Source: Bradyrhizobium sp. WSM1743
Lineage (GTDB): Bacteria; Pseudomonadota; Alphaproteobacteria; Rhizobiales; Xanthobacteraceae
DNA: 64,000 bases
NCBI RefSeq assembly: GCF_000473065.1
Contig: NZ_AXAZ01000011.1
Location: forward strand, 1-64,000
Direction of reading: 5' to 3'
Numbering within the stretch: the stretch's first letter is position 1; each line of letters begins with the position of its first letter. The translations under genes were made by a program, and so were the position numbers. This document shows, in pieces, positions 2,751 to 17,200 of this stretch. The notes under the pieces are model-generated. The model was given only the letters and a program-made list of their open reading frames with translations, searched no databases and was not told the DNA's origin.

Positions 2751-4526
2751 TCACACCAGCGCCTTGCCGGCGGCGAACGCCTTGGCCGTCGCTTCGTCGT
2801 TGGCCTGCTCCGGCAGCAGCATCTCGTTATGCGCCTTGCCGGAGGGGATCATCGGGAAGCAGTTTTCGAGTGCCGCGACGCGGCAGTCGAACAGCACCGG
2901 GCGCTTGACCGAGATCATCTCCTTGATGGCGCCATCGAGATCGCCCGGCTTGTGCACCTGGAGGCCAACGGCGCCATAGGCTTCGGCGAGCTTGACGAAG
3001 TCCGGCAGCGCTTCGGAGTAGGAATGCGACAGGCGGTTGCCATGCAGCAGCTGCTGCCACTGGCGCACCATGCCCATGTACTGGTTGTTGAGGATGAAGA
3101 TCTTGATCGGCAGCTCGTACTGCACCGCCGTCGACATCTCCTGCATGGTCATCTGCACCGAGGCGTCGCCCGCAATGTCGATCACGAGGCTGTCTGGATG
3201 CGCCACCTGCACGCCGACCGCGGCCGGCAGGCCGTAGCCCATGGTGCCGAGCCCGCCCGACGTCATCCAGCGATGCGGCTCCTCGAAGCCGTAGAACTGC
3301 GCCGCCCACATCTGATGCTGGCCGACCTCGGTCGTGATGTACGTGTCCTTGCCGCGCGTCGCCTCGAACAGGCTCTGGATCGCGTGCTGCGGCAGGATGA
3401 CGTCGTTGCTCTTCTTGTAGTAGAGCGAGTTGCGGGCGCGCCATTGCGCGATCTGCTGCCACCACGACTTGATGTCGGGCTTCTTCGCCTCCGACTTGAA
3501 CACCTGGAGGATGTCGCCGAGGACGTTGCCGCAATCGCCGATGATCGGCACGTCGACCCGGATGTTCTTGTTGATCGAGGACGGATCGATGTCGATGTGG
3601 ATCTTCTTCGAGCCGGGCGAGAATGCATCGACGCGGCCGGTGATGCGGTCGTCGAAGCGCGCGCCGACGCACAGCATGACGTCGCAGTCATGCATGGTCA
3701 TGTTGGCCTCGTAGGTGCCGTGCATGCCGAGCATGCCGAGCCAGTTCTTGCCCGAGGCCGGATAGGCGCCGAGGCCCATCAGCGTGGAGGTGATCGGAAA
3801 ACCGGTGACCTCGACCAGCTCGCGCAAGAGGTTGGTCGCCTCCGGGCCGGAATTGATCACGCCGCCGCCGCTGTAGATCACGGGACGCTTGGCGTTCGCG
3901 AGCAGCGAGACGGCCTTGCGGATCTGCGTCGCATCGCCCTTCACGCGCGGCGCGTAGGAGCGGTGCACGTCGGACTTGCGCGGCGGATGATAGGTGCCGG
4001 TCGCGAACTGCACGTCCTTGGGCACGTCGACCAGCACCGGGCCCGGCCGGCCCGAAGTCGCGACATAGAAGGCTTCGTGCAGCACTTTCGCTAGATCGTT
4101 GACGTCGCGCACCAGCCAATTGTGCTTGGTGCAGGGGCGCGTGATGCCGACGGTGTCGCATTCCTGGAAGGCATCGTTGCCGATCAGATGCGTCGGCACC
4201 TGGCCGGAGATGCAGACCAGCGGAATGGAGTCCATCAGCGCGTCGGTCAGCGGCGTCACCATGTTGGTGGCGCCGGGACCGGAGGTCACCAGCGCAACAC
4301 CCGGCTTGCCGGTCGAACGCGCATAGCCCTCGGCGGCATGGCCCGCGCCCTGCTCGTGGCGGACCAGGATGTGCTGAACCTGGCTCTGCTGGAAGATTTC
4401 GTCATAGATCGGAAGCACCGCGCCGCCGGGATAGCCGAAAATGTCGGTCACGCCATGATCGATGAGCGCACGGACGATCATTGCGGCGCCGGTCATCTGG
4501 TTCGGATCGTGGCTCTTGTCGCTCAT
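2751..4526 (-). CDS. ilvB: Acetolactate synthase large (catalytic) subunit
   Basis: This 591-residue ThDP-dependent enzyme condenses two pyruvates, or pyruvate with 2-oxobutanoate, in the first common step of valine, leucine and isoleucine synthesis. The activating glutamate is Glu58 in RHEQGAGHAAEGYAR. The ThDP/Mg motif begins GDAS at 453 and ends at Asn480-481. The central FAD-binding domain is present, and the length is normal for the family. Expression is probably controlled by the attenuator directly upstream (leader peptide at 4636-4701, terminator at 4584-4606). The small subunit ilvH lies about 1.2 kb downstream on the same strand. Confidence 0.96.
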   Translation of the reverse strand: MSDKSHDPNQMTGAAMIVRALIDHGVTDIFGYPGGAVLPIYDEIFQQSQVQHILVRHEQGAGHAAEGYARSTGKPGVALVTSGPGATNMVTPLTDALMDSIPLVCISGQVPTHLIGNDAFQECDTVGITRPCTKHNWLVRDVNDLAKVLHEAFYVATSGRPGPVLVDVPKDVQFATGTYHPPRKSDVHRSYAPRVKGDATQIRKAVSLLANAKRPVIYSGGGVINSGPEATNLLRELVEVTGFPITSTLMGLGAYPASGKNWLGMLGMHGTYEANMTMHDCDVMLCVGARFDDRITGRVDAFSPGSKKIHIDIDPSSINKNIRVDVPIIGDCGNVLGDILQVFKSEAKKPDIKSWWQQIAQWRARNSLYYKKSNDVILPQHAIQSLFEATRGKDTYITTEVGQHQMWAAQFYGFEEPHRWMTSGGLGTMGYGLPAAVGVQVAHPDSLVIDIAGDASVQMTMQEMSTAVQYELPIKIFILNNQYMGMVRQWQQLLHGNRLSHSYSEALPDFVKLAEAYGAVGLQVHKPGDLDGAIKEMISVKRPVLFDCRVAALENCFPMIPSGKAHNEMLLPEQANDEATAKAFAAGKALV

Positions 4527-4583: not shown

Positions 4584-4606
4584 AAAAAAGGCCCCGAAGA
4601 GGGCCC
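4584..4606 (-). terminator. Intrinsic terminator of the ilvB attenuator
   Basis: On the minus strand GGCCC-TCTTCG-GGGCC forms a compact GC stem followed directly by six T residues. It lies about 60 bp before the ilvB start codon and just downstream of the leader peptide stop, the position expected for a transcription attenuator. Confidence 0.85.
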
Positions 4607-4608
4607 GC

Positions 4609-4657
4609 GCACACCGCCTGTCTTGTGGATGGCAGCTAGCCACCCCCGGCGGTGTGC
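4609..4657 (-). promoter_or_regulatory. ilvB leader hairpin (pause or antiterminator element)
   Basis: A perfect 10-bp inverted repeat, GCACACCGCC with GGCGGTGTGC (4609-4618 and 4648-4657), encloses a second stem formed by GGGTGGC and GCCATCC with one G-U pair. It overlaps the last codons of the leader peptide and its stop codon, and abuts the terminator. A translating ribosome would therefore disrupt it. The exact competing antiterminator pairing could not be resolved by eye. Confidence 0.75.
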
Positions 4658-4701
4658 CTGGGTACGACGGCGATAAGGAGGATGGTAATAATGTTACGCA
4701 T
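4636..4701 (-). CDS. ilvB leader peptide, 21 residues
   Basis: The peptide begins MRNIITILLIAVV and ends in a glycine-rich tail before TAG. Eight of codons 4-13 are Ile, Leu or Val (Ile-Ile-Thr-Ile-Leu-Leu-Ile-Ala-Val-Val), the end products of the pathway encoded downstream. It starts about 26 bases after the predicted transcription start. Stalling of ribosomes at these codons when branched-chain amino acids are scarce would prevent formation of the terminator at 4584-4606. This architecture is established for ilv operons of enterobacteria and Caulobacter. The ribosome-binding site is weak. The role is inferred from sequence alone. Confidence 0.85.
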   Translation of the reverse strand: MRNIITILLIAVVPRHTAGGG

Positions 4702-4733
4702 GGCAGGCGCTCGGCTTCCCAAAGGTTGCGCGA

Positions 4734-4761
4734 AACATAGCGGCCAAACCTTGGATGTCAA
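4734..4761 (-). promoter_or_regulatory. Sigma70-type promoter of ilvB leader
   Basis: On the minus strand a consensus -35 TTGACA (4756-4761) and a -10-like TATGTT (4734-4739) are separated by 16 bases. Initiation near 4727 would place the leader ATG about 26 bases downstream. Confidence 0.7.
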
Positions 4762-5809: not shown

Positions 5810-6715
5810 ATGTCCCTCGTTGCCACGCTGATCTGCAACCCCGACAATCCCGCGCTCGACTCGACCATCGTCGACGGCGCCCGCGCCGTGCTGCCTCAGG
5901 CAGCTCCCGCGCACTGGCTGTTCGACGGGGTTGCGGTCGACATTCCCTTCGGCGCCGACAGTAACCTCGAAGGCGACCGCCACGCCATCGAGCGGCGGCT
6001 CCGCGAGCTCCGGGGCGACCTGCCGATCGACATCGTCGTGCAGCCAGTCGGCTTCCGGCGCAAGAAGCTTTTTCTCGCCGACATGGATTCCACCATGATC
6101 GGCCAGGAATGCATCGACGAGCTCGCCGATTTCGTCGGGGTGAAGGCGCATGTCGCTGCCATCACCGAGCGTGCGATGCGCGGCGAGATCGAGTTCGAGC
6201 CGGCGCTGCGCGAGCGCGTCGCGCTGCTCAAGGACCTGCCCGCGAGCGCGGTCGACGAGGTGCTGGCCAAGCGCATCACGCTGACGCCGGGCGGACGTGA
6301 ACTGGTGGCGACCATGCGCGCCCACGGTGCCTACACCTGCCTCGTCTCCGGCGGCTTCACGCTGTTCACGCGTGCGGTCGCCGCCAAGCTCGGCTTCCAG
6401 GAGAACCGCGCCAACGAGCTCGTCGTGCGCGACGGCAAGTTCACCGGCGAGGTGAAGGAGCCGATCCTCGGCCGCGCCGCGAAGCTGGCGACGCTGGTGG
6501 ATCTGATGGAGTCGTTCGATCTCGACGACATCGACTCGGTCGTGGTTGGCGACGGCGCCAATGATCTCGGGATGATCCAGGCGGCGGGGCTGGGTGTGGC
6601 CTATCACGCCAAGCCGGCCGTTGCGGCCGCCGCAGCAGCGCGGATCGACCACGGCGATCTCACCGCGTTGCTCTATGCGCAGGGGTATCGGCGCGACGAG
6701 TTCGTGGAGACGTAG
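5810..6715 (+). CDS. serB: Phosphoserine phosphatase SerB
   Basis: This 301-residue HAD-superfamily hydrolase carries out the last step of serine synthesis, converting phosphoserine to serine. The nucleophile motif [10 protein letters not shown] places the catalytic aspartates at 91 and 93. Motif II is VSGGFTLF and motif III is GDGANDLGM (247-255). An N-terminal ACT-like domain of about 80 residues precedes the HAD core, as in long SerB proteins. It is divergent from miaA. A palindromic repeat follows the stop codon and may act as a 3' end. Confidence 0.95.
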
Positions 6716-6725
6716 CTTCCTCTCC

Positions 6726-6806
6726 GTCATTCCGGGGCGATGCGAAGCATCGAACCCGGAATCTCGAGATTCCGGGTCTGGTGCTTGCGCACCATCCCGG
6801 AATGAC
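6726..6806. repeat. Intergenic palindromic repeat, family B
   Basis: The element opens GTCATTCCGGGGCGATGCG and closes CATCCCGGAATGAC. Inside, CCCGGAATC and GATTCCGGG face each other. It lies between the convergent serB and degP genes. A second copy of the same family sits inside the uvrD coding sequence at 52823-52920. Confidence 0.75.
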
Positions 6807-6814
6807 AGTGACTC

Positions 6815-8341
6815 CTACTGCACGCTCAGCGCCACAAACCGCAGCTCGCCATCGGCATTCGACACCAGCAGCAGCACCGACTTCTTGCCGTCCTTCTTGA
6901 GCTGGTCGACCCGCTTCTGGATGTCGGCACCGCTGGAGACGGCTTCCTGCGCCACCTCGACGATGACATCACCGGCGGACAGGCGCTTCTCGGCGGCGTC
7001 CGAATTGGCATCGACGTTGGTGACGACCACGCCCTTGACGCTGTCCTTGATCTTGTAGCGCGTGCGCAGATCCTTGTTCAGCGTTGCGAGATCAAGGCCG
7101 AGCGCCTTCTGCGTCACCGGCTTCTCCGGCGCCGGCTCCTCGGTCTTCACCGCAGCCTGCACCTTTTCCGGATCCTGCAGGCGGCCCAGCGTGACCTTCT
7201 TGGTTTCTTCCTGGCCCTTGCGGATGATGACGACGTCGACCTCCTTGCCGACCGCCGTATCGGCGACGACGCGAGACAGGTCCTTCGGGTCCTTGACGTC
7301 CTTGCCGTCGAACTTGACGACGACATCGCCGGGCTCGATGCCAGCGGGCTTGGCCGGGCCTTTGTCGTCGACGCCGGCGACCAGCGCACCGCGCGCGGGC
7401 TTGATGTTGAGACTCTCGGCGATCTCGTCGGTGACGCTCTGGATACGCACGCCAAGCCAGCCGCGGCGCAGCTCGCCGAACTGGCGGAGCTGGTCGACGA
7501 CGCCCACCACCGTCTTCGACGGCACGGCGAAGCCGATGCCGATGGAGCCGCCGGAGGGGGAGATGATCAGCGTGTTGACGCCGATGACGTCGCCGTCGAG
7601 GTTGAACAACGGACCGCCGGAATTGCCGCGGTTGATGGAGGCGTCGGTCTGGATGTAGCTGTCGTATGGCCCGGAGGAGATGTCGCGGTTCTTGGCCGAG
7701 ACGATGCCGGCGGTCACCGTGCCCCCGAGGCTGAAGGGGTTTCCGATCGCGACCACCCAGTCGCCGAGGCGCAGCTTGTCGGAGTCGCCGAACTTCACCG
7801 CGACCAGCGGCTTCGGCGGCTTGATCTTGAGCACGGCGAGATCGGTCTTCTTGTCGACGCCGACCAGCTCGGCCTTGATCTTGGTGCCGTCGTTGAGGAT
7901 GACGTGGATCTCGTCGGCATCCGCAATGACGTGGTTGTTGGTGACAACGACGCCTGATGTGTCGATGATGAAGCCGCTTCCGAGCGAGTTGGTCTTGCGC
8001 GGCGGATTGTTGTCGCCGCGCTCGCCGCCCTTGCTGCCGCCACCGGGGCCCCGGCGGTTCTTGAAGAAGTCGTCGAAGAACTCCTCGAACGGCGAGCCGG
8101 GCGGCAGTTGCGGCATGGTGTTGCTGCCGCCGCCCTTGGCGTCGACGGTCTGCGAGGTCGAGATGTTCACGACCGCGTCGATCACCTTTTCGGCGACGTC
8201 GGCGATGCCATCCGGTCCGCGCGCATGAGCCGGCGTGCCGAACGCGCTGAAAGCAACGACGGCGAGCGCGGCCAGCCCAATTCGCACACCAAGTCGCACG
8301 CAACGGCGCGAGCGGGACGGGGCAGTGGTGGCAGCGGTCAT
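6815..8341 (-). CDS. degP: Periplasmic serine endoprotease, Do/HtrA family
   Basis: This 508-residue envelope protease-chaperone degrades or refolds misfolded periplasmic proteins. A signal peptide (about 1-40, ending AHA) leads into a trypsin-like domain with catalytic His137 (TNNHVIADAD), Asp167 (KKTDLAVL) and Ser241 (NRGNSGGPL). Two PDZ domains follow, at about 290-385 and 415-500. A Gly/Pro-rich loop at about 98-118 (GPGGGSKGGERG) matches the LA-loop region. The start at 8341 is chosen for its GGAG ribosome-binding site and for giving a proper signal peptide. It lies downstream of hflK-hflC-DUF2065 on the same strand, a conserved alphaproteobacterial membrane quality-control cluster. Confidence 0.93.
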   Translation of the reverse strand: MTAATTAPSRSRRCVRLGVRIGLAALAVVAFSAFGTPAHARGPDGIADVAEKVIDAVVNISTSQTVDAKGGGSNTMPQLPPGSPFEEFFDDFFKNRRGPGGGSKGGERGDNNPPRKTNSLGSGFIIDTSGVVVTNNHVIADADEIHVILNDGTKIKAELVGVDKKTDLAVLKIKPPKPLVAVKFGDSDKLRLGDWVVAIGNPFSLGGTVTAGIVSAKNRDISSGPYDSYIQTDASINRGNSGGPLFNLDGDVIGVNTLIISPSGGSIGIGFAVPSKTVVGVVDQLRQFGELRRGWLGVRIQSVTDEIAESLNIKPARGALVAGVDDKGPAKPAGIEPGDVVVKFDGKDVKDPKDLSRVVADTAVGKEVDVVIIRKGQEETKKVTLGRLQDPEKVQAAVKTEEPAPEKPVTQKALGLDLATLNKDLRTRYKIKDSVKGVVVTNVDANSDAAEKRLSAGDVIVEVAQEAVSSGADIQKRVDQLKKDGKKSVLLLVSNADGELRFVALSVQ

Positions 8342-16746: not shown

Positions 16747-16849
16747 GTCAGGAGTTTAGAATAAGGGTGGCCGCCGCGGCCAAAACGGTCCGGAACCTAT
16801 CCAAAGGGAACCACAGGATCGCGCTTCCAACCCTCTGTTTTTTGGGAGC

Positions 16850-17200
16850 TTTGCCCCCTATATTGGGGGTGCCGGTTCGCCGGCTATGGAAATAAACGGT
16901 CGTCGCAATAAACCATTCGGACCCGGGGGCGGTACCCGGCGCCTCCACCAAAGCCCACCATCGGGCAAGCCTGAAGCTGAGCTTTGGCGGGGGCGAAATA
17001 GGATCGACGAGGGCGTAAAGGGCGTACTTTTTCCCGGTATTGTTCCGCCGTTATCGGGCTACTGCAATAGTTGCCAACGACAACTTTGCTCCGGTTGCTC
17101 AGGCTGCGTAACGCAGTTTGAAAGACCATCTTAAAGTCCTAGCGGGTTAAGCTCCGCTAGGCGGGGTTCGGAGGCACCTGGCAACAGAAGCCTCCACTTT
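16850..17200 (+). ncRNA. ssrA: Transfer-messenger RNA, circularly permuted two-piece form
   Basis: tmRNA rescues stalled ribosomes and tags the nascent protein. The acceptor piece comes first and ends CGCCTCC-A-CCA (16940-16950). After a 38-base spacer that is removed, the coding piece begins GGGGGCG at 16989, which pairs with CGCCTCC to form the acceptor stem with one G-U pair. The resume reading frame at 17073-17111 encodes ANDNFAPVAQAA and then TAA. Hairpins CCTAGCGG/CCGCTAGG and GGAGGC/GCCTCC close the coding piece. The outer boundaries are approximate. This gene order (acceptor, spacer, coding) is the established alphaproteobacterial permutation. Confidence 0.95.

Follow-up and report, generated by a model that had tools for sequence, protein, structure and literature searches.

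A conserved leader ahead of ilvB in Bradyrhizobium with the parts of a ribosome-mediated transcription attenuator

The stretch of DNA that we analysed, called the window here, comprises 64,000 nucleotides of Bradyrhizobium sp. WSM1743 and carries on its minus strand the genes for both subunits of acetolactate synthase. The large subunit, ilvB, lies at 2751-4526 with its start at 4526 (NF006581, 1198.8 bits against a cut-off of 974), and the small subunit, ilvN, at 1004-1546 (NF008864, 235.5 bits against a cut-off of 119; the coordinates are those of the query stretch). Between the two, on the same strand, sits a threonine dehydratase-like gene (1566-2561, NF004771), which is found at this position in 10 of the 12 named loci closest to ours (L160-L171); the exceptions are L167, where it is missing from this position, and L168, which is truncated at ilvB. 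Between ilvB and ilvN of the Rhodopseudomonas loci L172 and L173 there was no match. Among named proteins, the IlvB of Bradyrhizobium glycinis is the nearest (99% identity), in a search that may omit the records of the window's own genome. Elsewhere, on the plus strand, the window carries an alphaproteobacterial tmRNA gene at 16832-17198 (RF01849, 312.8 bits; permuted form RF04321, 139.9 bits).

Upstream of ilvB, on the minus strand, we find an element of 178 bp (4761-4584). The initial annotation had placed all of its parts within 180 bp before ilvB, which is right as to length, but the 3' end lies 57 bp short of the ilvB start. The TTGACA/TATGTT promoter that it had described is present at 4734-4761, with TTGACA at 4761-4756, a 16-nt spacer and TATGTT at 4739-4734. 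Downstream, the 5' UTR contains a conserved segment, CCTTTGGG (4718-4725), able to pair with CCCAG at 4662-4658, and is followed by a leader peptide of 21 codons, MRNIITILLIAVVPRHTAGGG, at 4636-4701 (ATG at 4701, the stop TAG ending at 4636). As had been claimed, the peptide contains a run of Ile, Leu and Val codons: eight, every one of them in codons 4-13 (4663-4692), a block that includes the rare codons ATT, CTT and GTA. A 10-bp inverted repeat, perfect in the window, gives a hairpin with its 5' arm GCACACCGCC at 4648-4657 and its 3' arm GGCGGTGTGC at 4609-4618; inside it, an inner 7-bp hairpin, which our analysis adds to the initial description, pairs GGGTGGC (4639-4645), directly ahead of the stop codon, with GCCATCC (4627-4633). 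The 10-bp hairpin had been said to overlap the stop; the hairpin itself stands, and the stop sits in its loop. Finally, the intrinsic terminator spans 4584-4606, with its stem at 4606-4589 and the six-T run, also as first described, at 4589-4584. By sequence, then, a promoter and an intrinsic terminator precede a biosynthetic gene, and a short leader frame carries a run of codons for amino acids of the pathway, as expected of an attenuator.

Taken as a single sequence, these parts stand out only modestly. The promoter agrees with the consensus at 10 of 12 positions (one site found against 0.2 expected in shuffles), the leader fold is somewhat stabler than shuffles (z -2.08, with 5 of 200 shuffles equally good), and the terminator-like site by itself is no more than chance, one being found and 0.7 expected. 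Eight Ile/Leu/Val among the 20 codons after the start have a P of 0.08; eight in the ten codons 4-13 have a P of 3e-4, uncorrected for the choice of those ten. We found no clear ribosome-binding site ahead of the leader ATG (window 4702-4727, minus strand), and the dozen or so bases just 5' of the start codon are variable across the genus loci loaded. At the start of the 5' UTR, CGCAACCTTTGGG shows strong conservation and no clear cis role.

Conservation is what lifts the element beyond chance. A DNA search of 60 genomes matched it in 36 of 36 genomes of the genus, the window's own included, and returned short matches only in two genomes of other families. Thirty loci from the 36 matching genus genomes were loaded, and the 21-codon frame, whose loss in close relatives would have spoken against the initial annotation, is intact in all 30, ending in TAG, TGA or TAA. 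In the family, 85 of 248 genomes gave matches to the DNA search, at 86 places in all, of which 80 were fetched; one of these, L146, is a 34-base match without ilvB, and each of the remaining 79, counting the window's own copy and one repeat, has a leader frame. Our script required two adjacent Ile/Leu/Val codons, so this set is no independent test of richness; the poorest leader among the 79, L145, has three Ile/Leu/Val of 16.

We built a covariance model, R1, from 102 distinct leaders of the family. The alignment (A2) omits the identical leaders L087, L088 and L094, the repeats L067 (of L001) and L071 (of L002), L125, which the leader script missed, and L134, at a contig end. In these 102 leaders the -35 motif TTGAC is always present (best site within 45 nt upstream), the promoter spacing is 16 in 76, and the mean promoter score is 9.5 against 5.9 in mononucleotide shuffles. 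R1 matches 220 of the 248 family genomes and 42 of 47 genera, with one match per genome in all 220. In the window's own genome it gives the window place and one other at E 4.5, hence no second copy. Because a class-wide search scored no more than some 10 candidates in each genome, its single match among 289 genomes, in the window's own, is weak evidence of absence; it also missed G116, a match of the Rfam family discussed below.

The codons themselves are kept. The family's leaders have 21 codons in 85 of 102 cases, and our codon table comprises 83 of these (L022 and L106, whose sites were set by hand, were left out). All 83 encode Ile, Leu or Val at codons 5, 12 and 13, in line with the conserved codons that the initial annotation had proposed to look for; codon 5 is ATT in 69, codon 9 is CTT in 71 and codon 13 is GTA in 80. 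In the window, ATT makes up 9% of Ile codons, CTT 4.4% of Leu codons and GTA 2.3% of Val codons, measured over 14,400 codons in 33 frames that we treated as genes. That leaders prefer rare codons for sensitivity is an old idea, since called an oversimplification (PMC1183508), and a low-G+C stretch kept unpaired would give a similar pattern. Codon 7 of the window leader (4681-4683, minus strand) is ATC, one extra Ile codon; it is Lys in 25 of the other 29 genus loci loaded and Glu or Val in the rest.

Compensatory changes in the stems, a further check proposed at the outset, occur in both hairpins. In the 102 leaders of the family, standard pairs fill 96.0% of the cells of the two hairpins taken together: 97.3% for the 10-bp hairpin, in which 4 of 10 pairs changed on both sides, and 94.1% for the inner 7-bp one, in which 5 of 7 did. 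These double-sided changes, in 9 of 17 pairs, amount to 81 cells against 14.9 in shuffled alignments (0 of 500 shuffles). Kinship can beat shuffles without any structure; slid versions of both hairpins, a control that retains relatedness, are lower on every measure. The terminator is paired in 88.7% of cells (102 sequences; the alignment there is loose), and its covariation score of 0.273 exceeds the 0.219 of shuffles (0 of 500), while the pair count and pair-type measures are not above shuffles. A terminator slid by one column scores equally (0.274, with 69 double-change cells against 28) because the alignment there is loose.

For an independent test, 80 named loci were picked by the IlvB protein alone. 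R1 matches upstream of ilvB in 67 of them (E <= 0.05), all on the ilvB strand and 44-176 bases ahead of where the IlvB match begins. The leaders of five of these (L162, L170, L172, L173 and L232) were already in the R1 alignment; excluding such loci leaves 62 matches in 75. All 67 matches carry a frame with a stop at the expected distance, and 65 of these frames have at least five Ile/Leu/Val, compared with 96 of 670 shuffled controls holding any such frame and 20 of 670 holding one with at least five. Among the 13 misses, L231 has just 33 upstream bases and L197 passes the cut-off of RF02502; the others may be without the element or too distant from it.

RF02502, filed in Rfam as the Rhizobiales sRNA Atu_C8, matches the window at 4693-4574 with 31.4 bits (E 1.4e-4). 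The match spans model positions 1-122 of 122 in sequence and structure, lies on the same strand and in the same place before ilvB, and is the single one in the genome at E <= 1, a loose threshold at which 8 of 14 control genomes also match, none above the cut-off. The curated cut-off of 50 is not reached, and for this reason the window copy is not filed as a member. The claim that the leader is unannotated thus holds for the window copy and fails for the order, where its relatives are in Rfam under this accession. A scan of Rfam up to E 10 adds merely two hits, at E 1.9 and 8.5, and we rejected another RNA class at the locus. In the order, RF02502 is found in 131 of 249 genomes at E <= 0.001, 37 of them above the cut-off (0 of 14 controls), and in the family of genome G221 in 193 of 199, 187 above it. 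In 29 of the 30 order loci fetched from the best-scoring genomes it lies 38-221 nt upstream of the point where an IlvB match begins. Twenty of the 80 named loci were scanned with Rfam, and 15 pass its cut-off, all before ilvB, two of them from Agrobacterium. Reciprocally, R1 matches all 44 RF02502-found loci given to it, at E 0.013 or better. Read by eye from its AUG, the RF02502 consensus encodes Met-Ile-Ile-Leu-Val-Val-Gly-Pro-Arg-Met-Gly-Arg-Ala-Val-stop, a short frame rich in Ile/Leu/Val like that of the window. Most likely, therefore, RF02502, although labelled as an sRNA and not as a leader, describes the Rhizobiales ilvB leader. We did not find it named as such in the literature searched, and the identity may be in print. 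PMC3738593 states that three sRNAs from Wilms 2012 represent 5' UTR leaders and that 32 resemble parts of 5' UTRs; RF02502 is among 40 families chosen as test cases for sRNA homology (PMC5913331). If it is a cis-acting ilvB leader, as our results suggest, searches for its targets should be read differently.

The ordered parts and their position before ilvB, the conservation that they show, the rare codons that persist and the covariation of the hairpins support the attenuator interpretation of the initial annotation, and the element is very probably a ribosome-mediated transcription attenuator for ilvB. We infer translation, stalling, termination in the cell, and an antiterminator that acts kinetically. 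RNA polymerase would start some 25 nt 5' of the leader ATG. With Ile, Leu and Val tRNAs charged and ample, the ribosome would reach the stop and cover the 5' arm of the 10-bp hairpin; with this arm covered the terminator would form, and transcription would stop as a short RNA. With charged tRNAs scarce, the ribosome would stall where the leader calls for Ile or Leu, including at the rare ATT and CTT, upon which the 10-bp hairpin would form and extend via CCC to the first GGG of the terminator before the second terminator arm has been transcribed. The captured arm would let the polymerase proceed into ilvB.

The possible antiterminator in this scheme, a part that the initial annotation had not named, is the 10-bp hairpin extended through CCC (4660-4662), which could pair with the terminator GGG at 4606-4604, taking three G of the terminator; the exclusion between the two structures rests on this 3-base overlap, and it may be kinetic only. 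In our model of the window with only the first terminator arm made, the extension pairs at 0.97-0.99 when the A site is at codons 4-10 and at 0 from codon 11 on. With the same half-made terminator and without a ribosome it pairs at 0.03, probably because the 5' UTR takes CCC, as it does in the minimum-energy fold, where CCTTTGGG is partly paired with CCCAG. As a covarying protector this last pairing was rejected, for cognate partners had no advantage (515 of 2000 permutations were at least as good). The finished terminator wins at equilibrium for every ribosome position in the window model (0.83-0.95), and therefore the antiterminator would have to be kinetic. Also, a ribosome that stalls at the two Val codons in the window sweep prevents the extension from forming, so that a shortage of Val would not be sensed by that route, and shortages of Ile and Leu would be. 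In a model of the 102 leaders, the first terminator arm is held upstream at 0.74 with the ribosome at codon 8 and at 0.34 with the ribosome at the stop, and equally, at 0.76, without a ribosome.

It is possible, although we would not favor it, that the element is an attenuator in which the 10-bp hairpin serves as a pause or protector hairpin while some other pairing is the true antiterminator. Indeed, the minimum-energy fold contains both the 10-bp hairpin and the terminator, and in fixed columns the extension is without covariation, 58 of 500 shuffles reaching its paired percentage and 125 of 500 its score. However, cognate arms extend the fixed stem by -7.4 kcal/mol on average against -6.4 for permuted ones (0 of 2000 permutations, relatedness not removed), and the consensus fold offers no other long pairing. 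In many relatives the base after CCC appears to vary with the bases before GGG, as in CCCA/UGGG and CCCUG/CAGGG.

We consider it unlikely that the terminated leader mainly works as a trans-acting sRNA or supplies a functional peptide, whether or not it also attenuates ilvB, even though the Rhizobiales form stands in Rfam as an sRNA, the conserved CGCAACCTTTGGG has no clear cis role, and the trp leader of Sinorhizobium meliloti is reported to yield both a trans-acting sRNA and a peptide (PMC7298713). A free sRNA would need neither Ile/Leu/Val codons nor a link to ilvB, whereas the rare codons are kept and the leader is tied to ilvB in 29 of the 30 order-wide loci fetched and in 67 of the 80 named ilvB loci. 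As for a plain terminator behind a chance short frame, with no regulation at all, it could draw on the terminator-like site and the Ile/Leu/Val count of the window leader, neither of which is above chance; but frame, codons, hairpins and place are conserved across the family and, more weakly, the order, which makes it extremely improbable. A chance origin was likewise rejected, given the conservation, the covarying hairpins and the rich frames compared with shuffles.

Copies of the leader also stand before other genes. RF02502 matches twice in 8 of 199 genomes of one family, and of the eight second copies we read six (those of G982 and G985 were left out): three lie before a second ilvB (L062, L241 and L245) and three before an MFS transporter (L063:2903-3022, L242 and L246). 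In another family of the order, L040 likewise has such a leader before an MFS transporter (L040:1501-1621). These transporter-linked leaders carry Ile/Leu/Val/Met codons. Two of the transporters were scanned: that of L040 scores above the Bcr/CflA efflux family cut-off (217.1 against 200.9), and that of L063 has the same family as its best match but stays under the cut-off (163.4). The leaders of L063, L242 and L246 (for example MKIAMVLVVVIKRMGRMV) are similar to the one ahead of the second L062 ilvB (MKIAMVLAVVIGRMGRMV), suggesting a path of copying. The transporter copies offer an example in which another gene has taken over an amino-acid attenuator. A bolder reading, which we regard as speculative and rather improbable, is that the ilv leader is a movable unit of control, copied in a few Rhizobiales before Bcr/CflA-type exporters, where slow translation of Ile/Leu/Val codons would switch the exporter on, and that the terminated RNA may act in trans like the trp leader; the slow translation would come from starvation or from ribosome-blocking drugs. 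Separately, G257 has two close ilvB genes, each with its own leader (L065:4032-4159 and 6700-6827, minus strand).

Attenuation of ilv operons is textbook knowledge in enterobacteria, and the ilvGMEDA and ivbL-ilvBN attenuators of Escherichia coli have the mechanism and the regulated pathway that we propose here. A difference is that the antiterminator proposed for the window overlaps the terminator by just three bases. Nothing pertinent on ilv, attenuation or leaders appears in the main texts of PMC4842269, PMC5082802, PMC4201532, PMC3927594, PMC2881028 and PMC2873474. For alphaproteobacteria, passages of two papers point to Vitreschak 2004: one calls the ilvB leader peptide previously described (PMC1273637), and the other has an entry for an 'ilvIH cis regulatory' element of Sinorhizobium meliloti, which Rfam lacked at that time (PMC2573895). 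The attenuators of that study, known to us through these citing papers, are like the window leader in gene, bacterial class and proposed control. The parallel with Caulobacter drawn by the initial annotation holds in kind, since leader attenuation of the Caulobacter ilv operon is in print, in a passage citing Tarleton 1994 (PMC4117421). By that description, the ilvBN/ilvIH leader of Caulobacter crescentus resembles ours in having a frame of Ile and Val codons before an acetolactate synthase operon and a Rho-independent terminator, in the same bacterial class. The class of mechanism is thus already known, and the window leader is a further case of an ilv attenuator, one for which the conservation makes a strong case and which yields a covariance model and a testable switch.
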